A program made the translations under genes and the position numbers. A stretch of DNA of 64,000 nt from assembly GCF_014217785.1 (NCBI RefSeq), contig NZ_CP048814.1, positions 620,001-684,000 on the forward strand. The letters run 5' to 3'. Within the stretch, counting starts at the first letter, position 1, and each line of letters starts with the position of its first letter. Shown here in pieces: positions 23,115-33,719 of the stretch. The DNA comes from Rhodococcus triatomae (GTDB taxonomy: Bacteria; Actinomycetota; Actinomycetes; Mycobacteriales; Mycobacteriaceae). Below the pieces are notes generated by a model that was given only the letters and a program-made list of their open reading frames with translations, was not told the origin of the DNA and did no database searches.

Positions 23115-24464
23115 TCAGTCGGTGAGGCTCGCCCGCATGCGCGCGGAGTCCGCCCCCACGGTTCGGGTGGCGAGGTAGATGAACACCGCGGTGAGCGCTA
23201 GCGTCAACGGCACCAGGTACAGCGCCGAGTTGAGCCCCTCCCCCGCGAACGCGGTCACTTCCTGCACGCCTGCGTCGGCTGCGGCGCGTTCGGCGAACCA
23301 GTCGGAGATTCCGCCGACCACCACCGGGCCGGCGAACCCACCCAGCAGATACATCGCGGCGAAGAACAGTGCGGTCGCGGTGGCCCGCAGCCGTGGGACG
23401 ACGATGTCGTGGATCGCCGGGTACACGCTGATGTAGAAGCCGTAGGCGAGCAGCCATCCGAGCGCGAACAGCAGGGTGAACAGGAAGACGCTGCCCCCGT
23501 TCTGCATCAGCGCGAGCGCGGTGAGCGGCGCCGCGACAGCACTGGTGACCACGCCGATCATCAGCCGGGCGCGGGGCGAGGTGGCCGATGCGCGGTCCGC
23601 GTAGCGGGCGCCGATCAGCAGGCCGAGCAGTCCGGTGAGCCCGACGATCACTCCGGTGACGACCGCCGCGGACGTCAGCTTCAGCTCGTACTGTCGCATC
23701 AGCAGCGGCACGGTGAACGAATTGACGGCATAGGCAGCGAAATTGAAGGTCAAGCCCGCAAGGATCAGCCAGCGCAGGGTAGGGATCGTGAGTAGCTTCC
23801 GGATCGGCTGCGTGACGGGCTCCGATGCGGTGGCCGACACCTCTTCGGCCCCACCGCGTTCGGGATCGCGCATCCGGAACATGACGAGCGCGAGGAGCAC
23901 TCCGGGAACAGCGGCAACGAAGAACGGTGCGCGCCAGGAATCGAACGACTCGGCGATCTTACCGACGGTGAAGTACGCGAGCATCAGCCCCATCGGGAGC
24001 CCGAGCATGAAGATTCCGAGGGCGCGGGAACGCCGGTCGGCCGGGTAGAGGTCACCGATCATCGAGTTGGCGGCCGGGGTGAAACTGGCCTCACCCACGC
24101 CGACACCGAGCCGGGCGAGGATGAACAACAGATAGTTGCCGGCGGCACCGGTGGCAGCGGTCAATCCGCTCCACACCAGCAGCCCGGCGCCGATGATCTT
24201 CGGGCGATGCGCGCGGTCGGCGAGGCGGCCGAGCGGCAGTCCCGCGATCGCGTAGACGACGGTGAACGCCGACGTGATCAGCCCGAGTTGCAGGTCGCTG
24301 AGCCCGAATTCGATCTTGATGGGTTCGGCGACGACGGCCGGAATGGCACGGTCGAAGAAGTTGAGCAGGTTGGCGAGGAACAGCGCGATCAGCGCCCCGC
24401 CGAGGATGGTGGTGCGGCCGGTACCCGAGGCAGGGGTGGTCGGCGCGGTCTGGTGCAGTGACAT
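23115..24464 (-). CDS. MFS transporter (spinster-like)
   Basis: 449 residues, about 12 membrane helices. Typical MFS loop motif between helices 2 and 3 (GLPLGRLADRAHRPK), followed by ARLGVGVGEASFTPAANSMI, which is characteristic of the spinster-like subgroup. ATG 24464 is preceded by GAGGACCCTCC. A conserved central Arg/Asp-rich loop separates the halves. Substrate unknown; clustered between two secreted hydrolases, so it may take up a hydrolysis product. Confidence 0.88.
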   Translation of the reverse strand: MSLHQTAPTTPASGTGRTTILGGALIALFLANLLNFFDRAIPAVVAEPIKIEFGLSDLQLGLITSAFTVVYAIAGLPLGRLADRAHRPKIIGAGLLVWSGLTAATGAAGNYLLFILARLGVGVGEASFTPAANSMIGDLYPADRRSRALGIFMLGLPMGLMLAYFTVGKIAESFDSWRAPFFVAAVPGVLLALVMFRMRDPERGGAEEVSATASEPVTQPIRKLLTIPTLRWLILAGLTFNFAAYAVNSFTVPLLMRQYELKLTSAAVVTGVIVGLTGLLGLLIGARYADRASATSPRARLMIGVVTSAVAAPLTALALMQNGGSVFLFTLLFALGWLLAYGFYISVYPAIHDIVVPRLRATATALFFAAMYLLGGFAGPVVVGGISDWFAERAAADAGVQEVTAFAGEGLNSALYLVPLTLALTAVFIYLATRTVGADSARMRASLTD

Positions 24465-24505
24465 GGAGGGTCCTCGTTGACGACAGTGAACGGGTGGGGT
24501 GGTGG

Positions 24506-25369
24506 TCAGCGGAGCCGGTCGGCGACGTGGGCACCGATCGCCTGCATTCCCAGCGCCGTGGGATGCAGCGGTGCCGCGGATTCGGTCGGCACGGCGCCGG
24601 CGTAGTGCGCCTGTCCGGGGTCGGCACAGATGTCGTGCCCCGCGGTGACCGGACGGATGTCGACGAATGTCATTGCCCGCGCGCGTGTCTGCTCGGCCAT
24701 CGCGTCGTTGACCGCGTCCATGACGCCCTGGAGGTAGTCGGCGTCGCGTGGCCACATCGGTTGACGGTCGGGGCATCCACCCGGCCGGGTGTACGTCCCG
24801 TAGCCGATGACGACGATCTCGGCGTTCGGCGCGTGAGCGCGCACCTCGTCGAGCGCCGCGCCCCACTGCGGAGCGGCGTCGTCGACGAGCGCCTGCTGCC
24901 GGTCGACGCCGTCGACGGTGGACGCGTCGGCGCACGACGTCCCGTTCGGTTCCGGGAGCGGGTTGAGGCAGCCGAGCGCGGTCGCGAACAGGTTGATGTC
25001 GTTGGCACCGATGGTGAGGGTGACGAGGTCCGTCTCCTCGCTCAGTGCGTGGATCTGCGGCGGAACGGGGCCGGAGACGGTGGCTTGCGGGCTGCTCGTG
25101 ACGTGAGCGCTGCGCGCGGACGAGCACGTGACGTCGGTGAGCTGCGCGCCCAGGGACGCGGCGAGCACGGACGGATAGTTCAGATGCGAGCGCAGACAGC
25201 CGGGGCTCGTGAGGTCCTGGTCCGGGATCAGCGGCCCCGCGGCTGCCGAGTCGCCGAGCGCAACGTACTCGAGCGGCTCCGTCGGCCCCGCCGCGGCGGG
25301 GCCTGCTGCGGCGGCCAGGAGACACGCCGCGGCGGTGACGGTGTAGGCGGTTCGGCGCACGGATGGCAC
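24506..25369 (-). CDS. secreted SGNH/GDSL hydrolase
   Basis: 287 residues with a signal peptide (cleavage near PAAAGP, about residue 28). SGNH blocks are all present: block I ALGDSAAAG (Ser nucleophile), block III TIGANDINL, and block V PLHPTALG (catalytic Asp replaced in spacing by His of the LHPT motif). Similar to Streptomyces-type extracellular lipases/esterases with several cysteines (CLRSH, TCSSARSAH, CADPG) that could form disulfides. GTG start with AGAGGAG about 11 bases upstream. Divergent from the PucR-type regulator. Confidence 0.85.
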   Translation of the reverse strand: MPSVRRTAYTVTAAACLLAAAAGPAAAGPTEPLEYVALGDSAAAGPLIPDQDLTSPGCLRSHLNYPSVLAASLGAQLTDVTCSSARSAHVTSSPQATVSGPVPPQIHALSEETDLVTLTIGANDINLFATALGCLNPLPEPNGTSCADASTVDGVDRQQALVDDAAPQWGAALDEVRAHAPNAEIVVIGYGTYTRPGGCPDRQPMWPRDADYLQGVMDAVNDAMAEQTRARAMTFVDIRPVTAGHDICADPGQAHYAGAVPTESAAPLHPTALGMQAIGAHVADRLR

Positions 25370-25499
25370 GGGGCTGGTCTCCTCTGGTCGGCGCCACCGT
25401 ACGATCGGATTTGTCGATTCCGGAGTGGCGTGGATTACATATTCTCTGGAAAGTGACAGGTCGTCCTTGTTCGGGCGGCTCGACTATCGGGAGGAATTT

Positions 25500-26744
25500 G
25501 TGTCTGCAGACAAAACCATCGTGCTCGGTGGCCGGCCGCTGGCGGATCAGCTCGCCCAGCGCACCCACGCGATCGTGGCGGAGACCGTCGACACGGTGTG
25601 GACGCAGGTGCCGTTCTACCGGTCGCTGCCCGAGGAAGCCGTGCGCAGCGATGTCACCGCGATCATCCGACGTAACCTCGAGGTCTTCATCGCGAGCCTG
25701 CGGTCGCTGCGGCCACCGAGCGACGACGAATTGGTACGGGTCCGCGAGTCCGCGGGGCGACGGGCCGAGGAGCTGGTGCCGCTCGCGGAGGTACTGCACG
25801 CGTATCACCTCGGCACCGAGCACTGGTGGGCCGCGATCACCGAGCTCGCCGAGCCGGGGGATGTCGCGGACCTGGGGCGCGCGGGGGCGTTGTTGCAGAC
25901 TCACCTGCAAGCGGCCACGGCTGCGGTGCTGGCCGGCTACGGGTCGGATCGGGCGACGCCAGGCGAGGACGACTCGGCGCGGCGCGCCCTGTTCCTGGCC
26001 CTGACGTCCGGGACGGACGCGACGGGGACGGCGGAGCGTGTGGGGGTCGACCTGCCGCGCCTGTACTGGGTGGCGGCGCTTCACATCGACCCCCATCCGG
26101 ACGAGCAATCCGCCGAGGTCGATGCCGTCGTCGCCGAACGCCGCAAGGTGCGGCGGTTGCAGCGGGAGCTGGACAATGTCGGCCGCGACAACGCACTGAG
26201 CATGGTGACCAGCAGCGGTGGCGGAGTACTGATTCCGATCCTCGAGGCGGAGCCCGGCGTGGACGACTGGCAGAACAGTCCGCAGTACGCGCTACTGCAT
26301 CGGAACCTGCGGGACATGGAACGGACGATCGGCGCCGCCGTGGTGGCAGGAGTGGCGGTGGCGGCGCCTCCGGATGTGCCGGGTGCATACGAGCAGGCGC
26401 GGGCCGTCCTGGATGTCGCCCGCCACTACGGCCGGGCCAGCGGCGCGGTGCGGCTGCGCGACGTCGCGCTCGAATACCAGCTCACCCGGCCGAGCGCCGC
26501 GACGCCGCTGCTCGCAGACCTGCTGTCCCCGTTGAACTCTCACCCCGCCGTCCTCGAGACCCTGGAGTCCTACCTCGACGCCGGCTGCGACCGCGCCGCC
26601 GCGGCAACAGCGCTGCACGTGCACCCGAACACGGTGGTCTATCGACTGCGGAAGGTCGCCACTCTCACCGGCCTGGACGTCGGCTCGGCGCCCGATCTGG
26701 TGCGGCTCGTCGCGGCGTTGGCGGCGCGGCGGGTGCGTGAGTGA
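25500..26744 (+). CDS. PucR/CdaR-type transcriptional regulator
   Basis: 414 residues. N-terminal helical sensory region, central GGDEF-like (PucR) region, and the C-terminal helix-turn-helix of the family (LESYLDAGCDRAAAATALHV, then NTVVYRLRKVATLTGLDV). GTG 25500 follows GGGAGG; a longer frame from 25425 lacks a site. Divergently transcribed from the SGNH hydrolase-MFS-hydrolase gene set across a 130-bp gap, so it most likely controls that set in response to a small molecule. Confidence 0.85.
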   Translation: MSADKTIVLGGRPLADQLAQRTHAIVAETVDTVWTQVPFYRSLPEEAVRSDVTAIIRRNLEVFIASLRSLRPPSDDELVRVRESAGRRAEELVPLAEVLHAYHLGTEHWWAAITELAEPGDVADLGRAGALLQTHLQAATAAVLAGYGSDRATPGEDDSARRALFLALTSGTDATGTAERVGVDLPRLYWVAALHIDPHPDEQSAEVDAVVAERRKVRRLQRELDNVGRDNALSMVTSSGGGVLIPILEAEPGVDDWQNSPQYALLHRNLRDMERTIGAAVVAGVAVAAPPDVPGAYEQARAVLDVARHYGRASGAVRLRDVALEYQLTRPSAATPLLADLLSPLNSHPAVLETLESYLDAGCDRAAAATALHVHPNTVVYRLRKVATLTGLDVGSAPDLVRLVAALAARRVRE

Positions 26745-27023
26745 GTGAGTGGTCCGCACTACGACACTGCGCGGCCTCCAACTCGTCGCGATCTGAAGCC
26801 AACCGTAGGTCGAATTTCGCGCTACCCTCGGGCGGTATCGCCCGCCCTCAAACCGGCGAGCCAGCGCTGATCCGGCGGCCACTTCACGAACCGTCGCCGC
26901 CGACACCTGGGATGGAGAGTGCAAGCGCCGTGCCATTCACTCGCTCCAGAAGCAGCCAACCGAGATGTGAGATCACTCCTGACTGGCGCGCCCAGACAGA
27001 GTTCGTCATACCCGAGCCCTACC
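26745..27023. other. 279-bp leader between the PucR gene and the restriction-modification island
   Basis: No gene recognised. Marks the left edge of the drop in G+C content that continues to about 30.4 kb. It should contain the promoter of the methyltransferase gene. Confidence 0.45.
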
Positions 27024-28118
27024 ATGAACAGCGTGCGCACACTCATCGATCTCTTCGCCGGCTGCGGGGGCATGACCAGCGGTTTCACCGCCGAGGGATT
27101 CACGTCAACACTCGCTATCGAGTTCGACCTCCATGCCGCGGCAACTTACGCTGCCAACTTCGGCGAGGATCACACACTGTGGAAAGATATCGGTGCGGTC
27201 AGAAATCAGCAGATTCCGAAGGCAGATGTGGTCATCGGCGGTCCACCGTGCCAGGGGTTCTCGAACCTAGGTTCAAGAGACGTCGACGATCCCCGCAACC
27301 AGCTATGGCGCGAGTACTTACGTGTCGTTCGTGCGGCGAACCCCAAGGTCTTCGTCATTGAGAATGTTGACCGATTCATGCGGTCGCAGGAGTTCGAGTT
27401 GCTCCTCGCCGAGGCCGACCACGGTTCACTCAAACGGTATGAGCTGTCGTACGGTCACCTCAATGCGGCAGACTTCGGCGTAGGCCAACGACGAAAGCGC
27501 ACGATAGTCATCGGCTCCCGCATCGGAAAGATCGAGCTGCCTGCTGCGACGCACGCCCGCGTGCCGGATGCCCGCAACGTGGCCCCCTGGGTGACAACTC
27601 GCGAACGCATTGGCGATGCACCTGAGACACCGACCTCAACATCGCTTCCCGATTCTACTGTCAGGGTCTTCGGTGAGAATGTTCCCGGTGTCTTTAAAGG
27701 CCTCGACATCCACCTTGGACGAACACCGACACCCCTGTCCCTGCAACGTTACGACCACGTCCCGCCCGGCGGGGGTCGTTTCGATGTACCTGACCATCTC
27801 CTTCCACGGTGCTGGCGCGAAAAGCCTTCCGGCACGACCGATGTCATGGGCAGGATGCGGTGGGACATGCCATCTCATACGATTCGGACTGAGTTCTTCA
27901 AGCCCGAAAAGGGTGCATATCTGCATCCCCAGTGGGACGCCCTCGGCAAGCACCGCGTCAACCGTCCAATAACACACTACGAGGCTGCACTACTACAAGA
28001 CTTTCCCGAGGATTTCCTATGGTGTGGGAGCAAAATTCAGATAGCCAAGCAGATCGGCAACGCGGTGCCCGTCGGGCTAGCTCGTGCTATAGCCAAGCAC
28101 ATTTCAGATTACCTGTGA
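27024..28118 (+). CDS. DNA (cytosine-5-)-methyltransferase of a type II restriction-modification system
   Basis: 364 residues with the canonical 5mC motifs in order: I LIDLFAGCGGM (AdoMet), IV GGPPCQGFSN (catalytic Cys), VI VIENVDRF, VIII QRRKRTIVIG, X QIGNAVPVGLA. The target-recognition region lies between VIII and X. It protects host DNA from the two endonucleases encoded directly downstream. ATG 27024. Since the neighbours are NaeI- and NgoMIV-like, the expected target is GCCGGC (inference). G+C content is visibly lower than in flanking chromosomal genes, suggesting acquisition by transfer. Confidence 0.95.
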   Translation: MNSVRTLIDLFAGCGGMTSGFTAEGFTSTLAIEFDLHAAATYAANFGEDHTLWKDIGAVRNQQIPKADVVIGGPPCQGFSNLGSRDVDDPRNQLWREYLRVVRAANPKVFVIENVDRFMRSQEFELLLAEADHGSLKRYELSYGHLNAADFGVGQRRKRTIVIGSRIGKIELPAATHARVPDARNVAPWVTTRERIGDAPETPTSTSLPDSTVRVFGENVPGVFKGLDIHLGRTPTPLSLQRYDHVPPGGGRFDVPDHLLPRCWREKPSGTTDVMGRMRWDMPSHTIRTEFFKPEKGAYLHPQWDALGKHRVNRPITHYEAALLQDFPEDFLWCGSKIQIAKQIGNAVPVGLARAIAKHISDYL

Positions 28119-28182
28119 TGCGTCCGCACTTGCCGATTGCCTCAGCTACTCATTGGAGTCCACCACCAGCATGCTTGGACAC

Positions 28183-29394
28183 ATGACCGACAGCACAGGA
28201 CTATTCGAGGTAGATACCGTTCCCAGCACAGGAGCCTCGAAGCGTCCGTCAGATGCACGAGCAACGGCAATGCGTCGCGTTCGGAATGGGTTCCGAAAGC
28301 ACCCCGACCCAACGAGCCCGATGTCCACGGTTCGCTATCGGCCGAAGCAAGCTCCACCATCCCCACCGAACGACCTCGAGCATGTGGCTTCGTTCTTCGA
28401 GAGTGCTCCAGACGGCCGCGAGCGTTTCCGCTGGACCCTGAGAGACTCACTCGATGAAGCCCTCGACGGTCAACGCACCGGTCGATGGTGTTACCAACAC
28501 CTCCGGAAGACGGAAAAGACCTATCTCGGAACGGCTGTCGAAATCAACCTGACTCGCGAGTTCGACATCTCGGATGGGCACGACCTCGACTGGAGGATCC
28601 TTGACACTGAAGTCGACTGCAAGTTCTCCCGCGATCTGGGAGGATGGGAAATTCCCACAGAGATGTACGTCTGTGCACACCACGGAGAGCAGTCAGCAGA
28701 TTACGACCAGATTGCCCTCCTAACCTGGTTGAACGATGACACCAAAGAGTGGGCTGCTGGACTTCTTCGAATTTCCGACAGCCGCCTCCGTTGGCGGCGG
28801 GACAAGTCGGGAGCAGACGTCCGCGCCTACAATAAAGATTTCAAACGCAGAATCTCTGAGAGCTCGTTGGCAGACATCTACTGGCTATGGGGAGGGATAC
28901 AGACCGATCTGCCCACGAATCTCCTCCGCCACCTACCCAAATCAACCCGTGACGAAATCCTCAAACCGGGATCGAGTGGGCAGGGTCGCGTGGACGCGCT
29001 TTTCCGCCACGTCCAGAATCGACTGATCAATCGCAATGTAGTCCTTACGGTCGGACAACAGGATGACGCGCCCAAACGGGCAAGAGACGCCCGCATACAC
29101 TTGAGACCGCACGGTATTATTGTGCTCGGACACGACCGGCCACACCAGAGGATCGCCGATTCGCTAGGACTTGAGATTCCTAGTAAAGGCTCGTGGATTT
29201 CCACGCGCGTTGCCCCTGTCCCGCCTGACGACGTACGCAGCAGCTTCTTCCTCGATGAACAGTGGTGGGCACGAGCCACCGGCGACGACGAGAGCGAAGC
29301 GCCGACCTTCCCGACGAAAAAATGGGATGGGCTCCGATTCGCCCCTCCGGCCGCTACAGGAACCAGCCGAACGGATATCACATGGGCGCCGTGA
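28183..29394 (+). CDS. NaeI-family type II restriction endonuclease
   Basis: Up to 403 residues. Strong resemblance to NaeI from memory: LDGQRTGRW, LRKTEKTYLGTAVEINL, the catalytic EVDCKFS (D-x-C-K), then LPKSTRDEILKPGSSGQGRV and RPHGIIVLGH in the second, DNA-binding domain. NaeI is a homodimeric type IIE enzyme that binds two GCCGGC copies and cuts GCC/GGC. The aligned NaeI start corresponds to ATG 28321 (357 residues). An upstream ATG at 28183 gives a 46-residue extension of unknown meaning, and a TTG at 28153 with GGAG is also possible. Follows the methyltransferase by 64 bp. Confidence 0.9.
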   Translation: MTDSTGLFEVDTVPSTGASKRPSDARATAMRRVRNGFRKHPDPTSPMSTVRYRPKQAPPSPPNDLEHVASFFESAPDGRERFRWTLRDSLDEALDGQRTGRWCYQHLRKTEKTYLGTAVEINLTREFDISDGHDLDWRILDTEVDCKFSRDLGGWEIPTEMYVCAHHGEQSADYDQIALLTWLNDDTKEWAAGLLRISDSRLRWRRDKSGADVRAYNKDFKRRISESSLADIYWLWGGIQTDLPTNLLRHLPKSTRDEILKPGSSGQGRVDALFRHVQNRLINRNVVLTVGQQDDAPKRARDARIHLRPHGIIVLGHDRPHQRIADSLGLEIPSKGSWISTRVAPVPPDDVRSSFFLDEQWWARATGDDESEAPTFPTKKWDGLRFAPPAATGTSRTDITWAP

Positions 29395-29439
29395 CCGTTC
29401 TCAGACCCGAGAGAGAGCACAATTTGGCAGGTTCAAGGC

Positions 29440-30294
29440 ATGGATCCTAAGTTCGCGCGTACTCTCTGCGGGTACCGCGCAGGGACGGCATTGCCATCGA
29501 CCTCTGACAAGGGTGATGTCAACTCGATCCGATGGGGCCGAGCGATGTTCGATGCGCTAGGTGTCGCCCACGCAACACCCGAAATCTCAGATGTCGGCAC
29601 GGCACTCGAAGTCGCCGTTGTCGAGGATCTCCGCGCGCGGCGCCCCGACCTAATCGTTGATCGGTCACGTATCGCTACCGATTTCGATCAGTATCGACAT
29701 CTTTCACAGCTGAAGAACTATATGTCCAGCTTTCACGATGATCTCGATCGTATCGAGATGGCAATCGCTGAAACGAAACAACTCGATACCTCGAAATCTG
29801 TAACAGCGCTACGGCGGCAGCTGAACACCATTCGGAACCATGCCGCCTCGAACCGCGGCTTTTTTTGCGCGCTGAAGGAGAACCTCGCCGAAGAGTCAAT
29901 GTTGAGGACGGACATCGCCGTAACTTCCCCTCGAAGTGGCCAGCGCCTACTAGTCGCACTCAGCTCCAAATGGTCGCTGCGGACTGACCGAGCACAGGAT
30001 TGCGTGTCGCAGGGAAGCAAACTCGTATCGCTGCGTAGAGGCCATATGCCACACTTCGCAGTCATCACGATGGAACCTCGTCCATCGATGCTCCGCCTGC
30101 TCACAGATGGTTCTGGATCCGTCGATTGCGTCTATCACGTTGCCTTCGGCGCCCTCAAGACCGCCGCCAACAGTCTTTCTAAGCAATCGATCCCGAGAAT
30201 GCCGGAGCAGCTTGATCTACTCGACCGGATGATCAAGCAGAATCGCATCAGACCATTTTCGGCGCTCCTCGATGAGATCAATCTCCTGCCATAG
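29440..30294 (+). CDS. NgoMIV-family type II restriction endonuclease
   Basis: 284 residues; NgoMIV is 286. Matches NgoMIV in order: an N-terminal glycine/serine segment, GTALEVAVVEDL (catalytic Glu), FDQYRHLSQLKNY, LRTDIAVTS (catalytic Asp), SSKWSLRTDRAQ (catalytic Lys, Cys of the prototype replaced by Ser), and PHFAVITMEPRPS followed by DCVYHVAF. NgoMIV is a tetrameric type IIF enzyme that cuts G/CCGGC. All three active-site acidic/basic residues are retained, so the enzyme looks intact. Starts 45 bp after the NaeI-like gene on the same strand; no second methyltransferase accompanies it. Confidence 0.88.
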   Translation: MDPKFARTLCGYRAGTALPSTSDKGDVNSIRWGRAMFDALGVAHATPEISDVGTALEVAVVEDLRARRPDLIVDRSRIATDFDQYRHLSQLKNYMSSFHDDLDRIEMAIAETKQLDTSKSVTALRRQLNTIRNHAASNRGFFCALKENLAEESMLRTDIAVTSPRSGQRLLVALSSKWSLRTDRAQDCVSQGSKLVSLRRGHMPHFAVITMEPRPSMLRLLTDGSGSVDCVYHVAFGALKTAANSLSKQSIPRMPEQLDLLDRMIKQNRIRPFSALLDEINLLP

Positions 30295-30298
30295 TCAC

Positions 30299-30323
30299 AA
30301 CCCACGGACGTCCAGTCTGGGTT
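30299..30323 (+). terminator. possible hairpin terminator of the restriction-modification operon
   Basis: AACCCA and TGGGTT form a perfect six-base inverted repeat around a 13-base loop, 4 bp after the endonuclease stop, followed by ATTCC. A second hairpin (CCCCT..GGCT / AGCCAGGGG, 30359-30389) lies further on. Neither has a strong T-run. Confidence 0.4.
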
Positions 30324-30531
30324 ATTCCACGCAGTAAGCAGGTCATTCCCGTTGTTCACCCCTGCGGCTCCTGTACCACTAGCCAGGGGCCTCACTGAAC
30401 CGTGCTGTGTGCGCTAACTATCTCCCACTCGTCAGATCCCAACCTCGCGCGCGCCGTCGCCGATGATCCGATCATTACATAGCAGGGGCAGCTCGACCCT
30501 GTGGCACCAGCGATCGCCCGGTGCGGACCCC

Positions 30532-30852: not shown

Positions 30853-30934
30853 GGTATCCCCCCGTCGAAATCTTCCTCCCCTTGGCTGGGCATGCTACTT
30901 CAGCGCAGGTCGGCCGTATACCCGAATCCGGAGC

Positions 30935-31090
30935 GGATGCTAGGTTCACTTCCGCAGGGAACACCGGTGCGAATCCGGGGCTGTCCCGCAACTGTCACCG
31001 AGTAGCAGACCTTCATCCGATGGCCACGACCTCCCTGGGTTGGAAGGCCGAAGGCGAGTGTTGATCCGGGAGCCAGGACACCTGCACCGT
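30935..31090 (+). ncRNA. cobalamin (B12) riboswitch
   Basis: Conserved core elements are present in order: GGAACACCGGTGCGAATCC (30957-30975), then GCTGTCCCGCAACTGT (30979-30994), and the B12 box AGCCAGGACACCTGCACC (31070-31087), which sits 26 bp before the substrate-binding protein start. Folding would normally let cobalamin shut off expression of the downstream genes. Ends of the element are approximate. Confidence 0.88.
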
Positions 31091-31112
31091 AGTCAGGACC
31101 GAGTTCACGAGG

Positions 31113-32765
31113 ATGAAGATGCGAGTGTTCACTCGCCGCACCCGGCAGTCTGCCGCGCGGCCACCCCACCATGCCCCCACCCCGGCCCGGCGCCGCTCGA
31201 TCTTCGCGGCCGGGATGCTGGCCGTCGCGCTGGTCTTCGCCGGCTGCGCGTCCGGCGACACCGCCGACGACGCGACCGCCTCGGCGCAGCAGCTCCGAGA
31301 GGAGGGCGACGGCTCCCTGACCATCTACAACTCGTACAAGATCGCGGGCCTGGACCCGATCGGCACCGGCACGAACTGGCTGTTCGACTGGGGCATCGCG
31401 GAGAACCTGCTGCAGGTCACCGACGACGGCGACATCGAGCCGTGGCTCGCAGAGGACGTCTCCCGCGACGGCGACACCCGCTGGATCATCACCCTGCGGG
31501 ACGGCGTCACCTTCCAGAACGGCAAGCCCGTCGACGCGGAGGCCGTCGCGGCCGCCCTGTCCCGCCAGATCGCCGAATCCTCCAACGCGCAGGTCTACCT
31601 CGACCCTGCGACGACCGCGACGGTCGACGACGGCAAGGTCGTGCTCACCACGCCCGAACCCAACGCGATGGTTCCCGCGGCCCTCGCCGCCCGCGACAAC
31701 TCGCTGCAGATCTACGACGTCGCGGCCATGGAAGCAGCGGCAGGAGACTCAGCGCAGATCGTGAACGCCGGCGCCTACTCCGGCCCCTACGCGATCACCG
31801 AGTGGAACCCGGACAACCTCGTCCTCGCCCCCTACGCGGACCATTGGGAGGGCACTCCCCCGCTGACCGGGATCACCGTTCGCGTGGTTCCCGACGAGCA
31901 GGCCCGGCTCGCGGGCGTGCAGAGCGGGGAGGCCGACATGGCCTTCTACCCGTCCACGTCGGCGAAGCTCGAGCTCCAGGGCAACGACGACATGCACGTG
32001 CTGTCCTCCGAACTCGCTCTCCAGTCGCTGCTGGTGGAGATGAACCTGAAGGACGGGATCTTCACCGACACCGACGTGCGCAAGGCGTTCACCGCCGCCA
32101 TCGACTACGAAGGCATCGCCGCGGACGTCGGCAACGGCCAGTTCGCCCCCGCGGCCGGCCTCTACCCGGACACCATGTCCTTCGCCGTAGACAACCAGGT
32201 CCACGACCTGGACGAGGCGAACCGCCTCCTCGACGAGGCGGGCTGGGTCACCGGCGGTGACGGCATCCGGGAGAAGGACGGCCAGAAGCTGGTGGTGCGC
32301 TTCGTCACCCAGGCGCAGGGACCGGAGACCAACGACGTCGCCATCGCGATGAAGGACCAGGTCTCGCGCGCCGGGTTCGACCTGCAGATCGACAACGCCG
32401 AGGACTCCGCAGCGGTGAAGAACGATCCGACGGCGTGGGAATCATCGGTGGCACTGAGCGGTTCGCTGTCCGGCACCGCGGACCCGATCCAGCCGTACCT
32501 GGTGCGCTGGACCACCGACGGCTCCTCGAATGCCCAGGGCATCAGCAACCCGGAGATCGACGCGATCGGTGAGCAGCTGCGCGGCGAGTTCGACACCGAG
32601 CGCCGGGACGAGCTGCTCGAGCGCGCACAGGAGATCCTCGTCGCCGAGCAGGCTTACGTGGTGGCCGGGACGTTCAAGTACTTCACGGTGGTGACCGGTC
32701 CGGAATGGGCCGACTACCACGTGTCGAGCGTTCGCCGGCACATCACCAGCCAGACCGGCAAGTAA
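31113..32765 (+). CDS. ABC transporter substrate-binding lipoprotein (peptide/nickel family, SBP_bac_5)
   Basis: 550 residues. Long Arg-rich N-terminus, hydrophobic stretch and lipobox VFAGC (Cys45), so lipid-anchored outside the membrane. Family 5 binding-protein features: DPIGTGTNWLFDWGIAENLL, WIITLRDGVTFQNGKPVDA, DEANRLLDEAGW. ATG 31113; ATG 31119 has slightly better spacing from CGAGG. Located behind a cobalamin riboswitch and in front of two permeases and a double ATPase, so the cargo is predicted to be cobalt, a corrinoid or a precursor rather than a general peptide (inference from regulation). Confidence 0.9.
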   Translation: MKMRVFTRRTRQSAARPPHHAPTPARRRSIFAAGMLAVALVFAGCASGDTADDATASAQQLREEGDGSLTIYNSYKIAGLDPIGTGTNWLFDWGIAENLLQVTDDGDIEPWLAEDVSRDGDTRWIITLRDGVTFQNGKPVDAEAVAAALSRQIAESSNAQVYLDPATTATVDDGKVVLTTPEPNAMVPAALAARDNSLQIYDVAAMEAAAGDSAQIVNAGAYSGPYAITEWNPDNLVLAPYADHWEGTPPLTGITVRVVPDEQARLAGVQSGEADMAFYPSTSAKLELQGNDDMHVLSSELALQSLLVEMNLKDGIFTDTDVRKAFTAAIDYEGIAADVGNGQFAPAAGLYPDTMSFAVDNQVHDLDEANRLLDEAGWVTGGDGIREKDGQKLVVRFVTQAQGPETNDVAIAMKDQVSRAGFDLQIDNAEDSAAVKNDPTAWESSVALSGSLSGTADPIQPYLVRWTTDGSSNAQGISNPEIDAIGEQLRGEFDTERRDELLERAQEILVAEQAYVVAGTFKYFTVVTGPEWADYHVSSVRRHITSQTGK

Positions 32766-32777
32766 CACCGCCTCACG

Positions 32778-33719
32778 ATGCGTGTCCTGGCTATCGCCCG
32801 GCGCCGCGTCGTCGAGGCGCTGATCACCCTGCTGGGTGCGAGCGTGCTCATCTGGGCGCTCATGCCGCTGGCTCCGGGCAGCCCTGCGCGAATGATCCTC
32901 GTCGCGCAGGGCATCCCGGAACCGACGCCGCAGCAGATCAGCGACCTCGAGCGGGCGCTGCACCTGGACCAGCCGTTGCTCTCGCAGTACGTGCATTGGC
33001 TGTGGGGCGCCGTGCGGGGCGATTTCGGGCTCTCCTTCGCCTCCGGGCGTCCGGTCTCGGACGAGCTCGCCGGTCGCCTCCCGGCCACCCTCACGTTGGC
33101 GGCGGCGTCCCTGGTTCTCGCACTGGTTCTCTCCGTTGCGCTCGGTGTCGCCGCCGCCCAGTTCCCCGGACGCTGGCCGGACCACGGAACCCGAGGCCTG
33201 GCACTGCTGTTCGCCTCGATCCCGGGGTTCGTCATCGCCCTGCTGCTGATCCAGGTGTTCGTAGTCGGTTTCGGCGTGGGCAAAGCCGCACTGGACGGCA
33301 CCTGGCAGCAGGTGTGGATGCCCGCGCTCTGCCTGGCCGTCGGACTGTCCGACACCTGGTCGCGGCTGCTGCGCGCCAATCTCCTCGCCTTCATGGAAAC
33401 ACCGACCGCGCAGGTACTCGCGGCCCGGGGCGCCTCCCGCCGGCGAATCCTGTGGCGGCACGGGCTGCCCAACAGCGCGGTGCCCTCCCTGCACGCGCTG
33501 GCAGTCGGCGTCGCGATCCTCATCGGCGGAGCCACCGTGGTCGAAACCGTCTTCACCTGGCCGGGACTCGGCTCCTACGTCGTGGAGTCGGTCAAACACC
33601 GGGACCTGCCGGTGATCCAGGCGTTCACCGTGTTCGCCACCCTGTCCTACATCGTCACCAGTGTCGCCGCCGACATCGTGTCGGCCGTCGTCGACCGCAG
33701 AATCACGGTGGACGCATGA
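32778..33719 (+). CDS. ABC transporter permease (DppB/NikB type)
   Basis: 313 residues, six membrane helices, cytoplasmic EAA-loop region around ARGASRRRILWRHGLPNSAV. The N-terminal helix and the DxDQP-like periplasmic segment (LERALHLDQPLLSQYVHW) are typical of the DppB/NikB half of peptide/nickel importers. Starts 12 bp after the substrate-binding protein gene; its stop overlaps the start of the second permease (ATGA). Confidence 0.9.
   Translation: MRVLAIARRRVVEALITLLGASVLIWALMPLAPGSPARMILVAQGIPEPTPQQISDLERALHLDQPLLSQYVHWLWGAVRGDFGLSFASGRPVSDELAGRLPATLTLAAASLVLALVLSVALGVAAAQFPGRWPDHGTRGLALLFASIPGFVIALLLIQVFVVGFGVGKAALDGTWQQVWMPALCLAVGLSDTWSRLLRANLLAFMETPTAQVLAARGASRRRILWRHGLPNSAVPSLHALAVGVAILIGGATVVETVFTWPGLGSYVVESVKHRDLPVIQAFTVFATLSYIVTSVAADIVSAVVDRRITVDA

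Follow-up and report, generated by a model that had tools for sequence, protein, structure and literature searches.

The analysed window, a 64,000-nucleotide stretch of the Rhodococcus triatomae genome (4.77 Mb), carried three intact genes on the forward strand. These were an m5C DNA methyltransferase (M; 27024..28118, +, 364 aa), a NaeI-type endonuclease (28183..29394, +, 403 aa) and an NgoMIV-related endonuclease of a clade called NgoQ here (29440..30294, +, 284 aa), in this order and with intergenic gaps of 64 and 45 bases. The methyltransferase gene adjoined a nuclease gene, as in type II restriction-modification systems, and all three open reading frames were present as described by the first-pass annotation, which had reported one methyltransferase beside two apparently intact nucleases.

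The system was located in a low-GC island (26750..30450, borders approximate). The G + C content was 0.56–0.60 inside (500-base windows, 27000 to 30499) and 0.67–0.72 in the flanks (24000–26749 and 31000–33499). From 28 genomes of the genus, including the host, the NgoQ profile matched only the host and G757, the latter as a weak fragment (E 1.2e-4). Most likely, the three-gene island was acquired by horizontal transfer. An empty site was not demonstrable, with the upstream genes being syntenic in G764 and G761 and the downstream genes having no match there. Scans for promoters and terminators gave no more matches than shuffled sequences. The earlier suggestion that one nuclease is a recent addition found no compositional support, all three genes being in the same low-GC island; nuclease partners were exchanged over longer times, as indicated by distance correlation and tree labels (see below). 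Close to the island there was a cobalamin riboswitch (30914–31103, +; RF00174, 84.9 bits), directly followed by a gene for an SBP_bac_5 solute-binding protein (31113–32765) and then by permease-like ORFs, together a candidate corrinoid-controlled ABC transporter.

M was recognized by Pfam PF00145 (199 bits, E 1.8e-58, above the cut-off). The first nuclease belonged to the NaeI family, as proposed before, with 267 bits for PF09126 (cut-off 25) and an alignment with the NaeI structure 1ev7 (chain residues 10–315, E 2.8e-61). Its reading frame was open from a TTG at 28153, and the start is most likely the ATG at 28183, judging from the line-up with the starts of homologues. Both domains were aligned with 1ev7, and residues matching E70, D86, D95 and K97, the catalytic residues of NaeI, were present. 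The window protein thus shared with the NaeI system the PF09126 family, both domains and the catalytic residues, and differed from it in having a second nuclease under the same M. It also carried an N-terminal extension of ~70 residues (28183–28400, +), lacking in the prototype chain. The extension was common to the five homologues compared and had a conserved LF motif and a RRxRNxFRxHP-like stretch.

The second nuclease, NgoQ, matched the NgoMIV model PF09015 with 78 bits (cut-off 23.2) and aligned with the NgoMIV structure 1fiu, chiefly in the C-terminal half (E 6.6e-18). By Pfam and by fold it belonged to the NgoMIV family, so that neither nuclease fell outside its proposed family, and NCBI names the NgoQ proteins “NgoMIV family type II restriction endonuclease”. 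However, NgoQ formed a separate clade. In a tree of 28 NgoQ and 14 Glu-type NgoMIV rows, the two groups were separated with a support of 100/100. Excluded from the tree were L069, L083 and L088 (NgoQ in pieces), L090 (a fragment) and L125, which had the same NgoQ motif as L078 and a contig of equal length, was treated as the same locus and remained uncounted. With E201 replaced by Gln (see below), NgoQ is classed as a sister clade of NgoMIV and not as an NgoMIV orthologue. The two window nucleases had been called unrelated; no sequence kinship between them was detectable, but both are PD-(D/E)XK enzymes according to passages of PMC4081073.

The active site of NgoMIV consists of E70, D140, K187 and E201. 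NgoQ kept the first three (the Glu, Asp and SSKW noted at first pass, here E57, D158 and K177), but E201 was replaced by Gln191, and an aspartate, Asp187, stood at the place of NgoMIV N197. The residues K177 (codon 29968..29970, +; the catalytic lysine, NgoMIV K187), D187 (codon 29998..30000, +) and Q191 (codon 30010..30012, +) were each invariant in all 120 homologues listed. Judging from this alignment, Gln191/Asp187 is a mark of the whole clade, not of gene decay. D187 is positioned one helical turn before Q191, and D158, K177, D187 and R181-T-D-R184, which fit the PD..K..D/E site and the R-(D/E)R recognition motif of CCGG-family enzymes, were all invariant. In two members of this family, BsaWI and Kpn2I, the last carboxylate deviates (excerpts of PMC6344858 and PMC4652773). 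In the excerpted text, BsaWI has its essential Asp (D175) ten residues after the lysine, at the place of NgoQ D187, and Kpn2I has a Gln at the E201 place, both as in NgoQ. On the BsaWI precedent we propose D187 as the relocated active-site acid, and because of its place NgoQ is probably catalytically active.

The loss of E201 throughout the clade could also mean that NgoQ has little or no catalytic activity and acts as an accessory to another nuclease, by binding or bridging GCCGGC sites, by nicking or by regulation. This would fit with the frequency of partners, as a second nuclease was found beside 24 of the 28 NgoQ tree rows vs 6 of the 14 Glu-type rows (Fisher p 0.009, uncorrected for relatedness and sampling). 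But the change of N197 to Asp is coupled, at BsaWI’s place, the remaining catalytic residues are all invariant, and four loci had M and an intact NgoQ with no partner among the three nuclease classes searched with HMMs. A dead NgoQ is made less likely by the covarying Asp187 and by the precedents of BsaWI and Kpn2I, as given in the excerpts, and we regard the accessory role as unlikely.

The NaeI prototype cuts GCC/GGC, leaving blunt ends (type IIE), and the NgoMIV prototype cuts G/CCGGC (type IIF). M was compared across loci. An M related to that of the window was present in 29 of the 30 NgoQ loci found in other genomes, scoring >250 bits in 28 of them and 40 bits in L083. The comparison covered M beside NaeI only (L101), beside Glu-type NgoMIV only (L095, L097, L098), beside NgoQ only (L065, L070, L071, L089) and beside pairs. 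The TRD core was conserved irrespective of the accompanying nuclease class, with an overall identity to the window M of 0.49–0.76, the lowest values coming from the shorter M of L062, L071, L077 and L093. Since the same M clade accompanies each nuclease alone, the nucleases most simply have the target of M in common, and since both prototypes act at GCCGGC, this would be the common site. M is therefore best read as protecting one target common to both nucleases, GCCGGC by prototype. The first-pass claim that both enzymes should cut GCCGGC is partly supported in this form, with the G/CCGGC cut being less certain for NgoQ. In 464 kb of the host genome, GCCGGC was found at 0.81 of expectation (z -4.9), the 19th lowest of 64 palindromes, with CCCGGG at 0.83 and CGGCCG at 0.87 in the same sample. 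In samples from three congeners without NgoQ, and with unchecked NaeI status, the values were 0.96, 1.02 and 0.97. This mild under-representation weakly favours GCCGGC as the target.

In CCGG-family enzymes the R-x-D-R motif reads CCGG, and it was unaltered in NgoQ (R181-T-D-R184). The residues S192, R227, D34 and Q63 of NgoMIV act at the outer base pair, which S192, R227 and Q63 contact (passages of PMC4652773). From these, S192 was replaced by Thr and R227 by Met in all 120 NgoQ homologues listed, the Q63 place was variable among them, and the D34 place had Asp in 109 and a gap in 11. The nearby T224 was replaced by Arg in the whole clade. Glu-type rows with these motifs kept Ser at 192 and Arg at 227 (11/11). 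Together with E201 and N197, S192 and R227 thus set NgoQ apart from NgoMIV. With these residues altered, recognition of the outer pair by NgoQ may depart from that of NgoMIV, and its target may differ. NgoQ could then cut another CCGG-containing sequence, with a different outer pair, and M would cover both targets; CCCGGG and GCCGGC were similarly infrequent in the host genome. We consider this improbable, given the conserved Asp at the D34 place, and given that M found beside NaeI only or beside Glu-type NgoMIV only has the TRD core of the M beside NgoQ only. The same substitutions at R227 (Met), T224 (Arg) and S192 (Thr), together with the shifted carboxylate, would also suit a dedicated companion nuclease, cutting GCCGGC in states that stop its partner, for example with foreign methyl groups where M puts none. 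If so, phages whose methylation protects them from one enzyme would still be resisted by the pair, and the partner could be any nuclease acting at GCCGGC. We consider this quite unlikely.

The arrangement had been called unusual, and the pairing is indeed rare per genome, yet recurrent in Actinomycetota. A scan of genome contigs gave the 30 NgoQ loci, all from Actinomycetota by title. With HMMs that we built for three nuclease classes (NaeI, remote NaeI-type, Glu-type NgoMIV), we found a second nuclease nearby in 24 of them: 18 NaeI, 5 remote NaeI-type and 1 Glu-type NgoMIV (L074). The remote NaeI-type enzymes had an ELK motif and lower PF09126 scores (92 bits in L073, 113 bits for a relative in G091). 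The two Asp and the Lys were retained in all 18 NaeI partners, and the partner in L068 had a Gln at the E70 place. The HMMs detected no partner in six loci (L065, L070, L071, L089, L088 and L090). From these, L065 adjoined an insertion sequence, L071 had only 3.7 kb on one side, L088 had a broken NgoQ and L090 was a fragment near a contig end. Five chosen neighbour ORFs from L065, L070, L071 and L089 gave by Pfam SIR2_2, no family, DUF2971, HATPase and Vsr.

Of the 397 genomes in an order-level sample, 25 had NaeI (24 of them above the cut-off) and 14 had a member of the NgoMIV family. Five genomes, including the host, had both, against 0.9 expected (Fisher 0.0009, relatedness uncorrected), and in all five the two genes were ≤2.5 kb apart. 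Pairs in the order sample were NgoQ with Glu-type NgoMIV (G166), NaeI with Glu-type NgoMIV (G057, G071, G105, G216) and NaeI with remote NaeI-type (G091). In the class sample, 3 of 394 genomes had NgoQ (G000, G166 and G613, the last two assigned from match strength and D/Q motif). Among the 396 genomes of the phylum sample, only the host gave a match strong enough to count as NgoQ, the assignment resting on match strength. None of the 17 pattern matches in viral contigs was confirmed, and phage records gave a single partial match (43% of the query). Sixteen plasmid records matched, 15 of them listed, and three examined regions were of the N/E type.

When gene order was compared, the trio recurred in at least eight orders and orientations, and it was inherited in one order in seven Streptomyces loci. 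Partner labels needed eight changes on the tree. The NgoQ and NaeI distances were correlated over 17 loci (Mantel r 0.70, p 0.0001), but the correlation was lost when only one of the seven Streptomyces was retained (r 0.09, p 0.22, 11 loci). We therefore do not postulate one ancient, co-evolving NgoQ/NaeI pair. With the several gene orders, the label changes and the lost correlation, the double-nuclease state has thus arisen by assembly or reshuffling on several occasions. Such exchange, as well as the NgoQ genes broken in L088 and frameshifted beside NaeI in L069 and L083, would also be expected if restriction-modification modules were replacing each other's genes and the pair were only a transient, functionless stage of this turnover. 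We consider this very unlikely, because two nucleases were kept in 24 of the 30 loci, the NaeI partners retained their D, D and K, and the Streptomyces trio was inherited.

As the best explanation, and a fairly probable one, we propose an acquired type II island in which one M protects GCCGGC against two active nucleases, NaeI-type and NgoQ. The analysis establishes the genes and their families, the conserved residues, the predicted fold, the recurrence of the pairing and the common M clade; the activity of both enzymes and GCCGGC as the target are inferred. M would methylate the host sites, and unmethylated invading DNA would be cut by both nucleases. A second site stimulates the NaeI prototype, whereas the NgoMIV prototype is a tetramer cutting two sites at once (passages of PMC4081073). 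In the NaeI prototype, one site is cut with the second acting as effector. NgoQ would use a CCGG-family active site with the last carboxylate shifted by one helical turn, as in BsaWI. Two enzymes that attack the same site but differ in architecture, allosteric control and point of cleavage could leave phages fewer escape routes, such as refractory sites, inhibitors or modifications stopping one enzyme, although this benefit of two nucleases is conjecture. Against the two-nuclease explanation stand the missing E201, the changes at S192, R227 and the Q63 position, by which the NgoQ target may differ, the mildness of the GCCGGC under-representation beside CCCGGG and CGGCCG, and the three broken NgoQ genes.

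Type II systems are usually described with one nuclease and one methylase. The system found here is a real double-nuclease variant of type II restriction-modification, with a distinct companion-nuclease clade. BbvCI, a two-subunit restriction enzyme in the excerpt of PMC6326814, likewise has two nuclease proteins in one system, whereas the window-type proteins are members of separate families, and either of them also occurs with M on its own. The families are already known. In titles and abstract openings of the open-licence literature, neither a NaeI/NgoMIV pair sharing one methylase, nor its interchangeable pairing, nor the D/Q clade was found described. Four nuclease classes (NaeI, remote NaeI-type, Glu-type NgoMIV and NgoQ) are combined pairwise, repeatedly, with one methylase clade. 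Experiments can thus address whether restriction becomes broader when a site is attacked by a second nuclease of different build. NgoQ itself is a natural case of a carboxylate shifted by one helical turn plus altered outer-base contacts, comparable with Glu-type relatives using the same methylase clade.

Vsr genes were found beside M in L089 (10048–10512, by Pfam), L160 (3007–3417) and L161 (3696–4169, both by annotation), and further ones were spotted by eye in L070 and L066. Next to the M of the window, no Vsr gene was noticed. G216 had two separate loci (L094/L095 on contigs C30/C15), one contig with NaeI, M and Glu-type NgoMIV, and another with M and Glu-type NgoMIV. In L100 (7777–11887, from G091), M was flanked on one side by a remote NaeI-family nuclease (113 bits) and on the other by a close one, so that this locus has two nucleases but no relative of NgoMIV.
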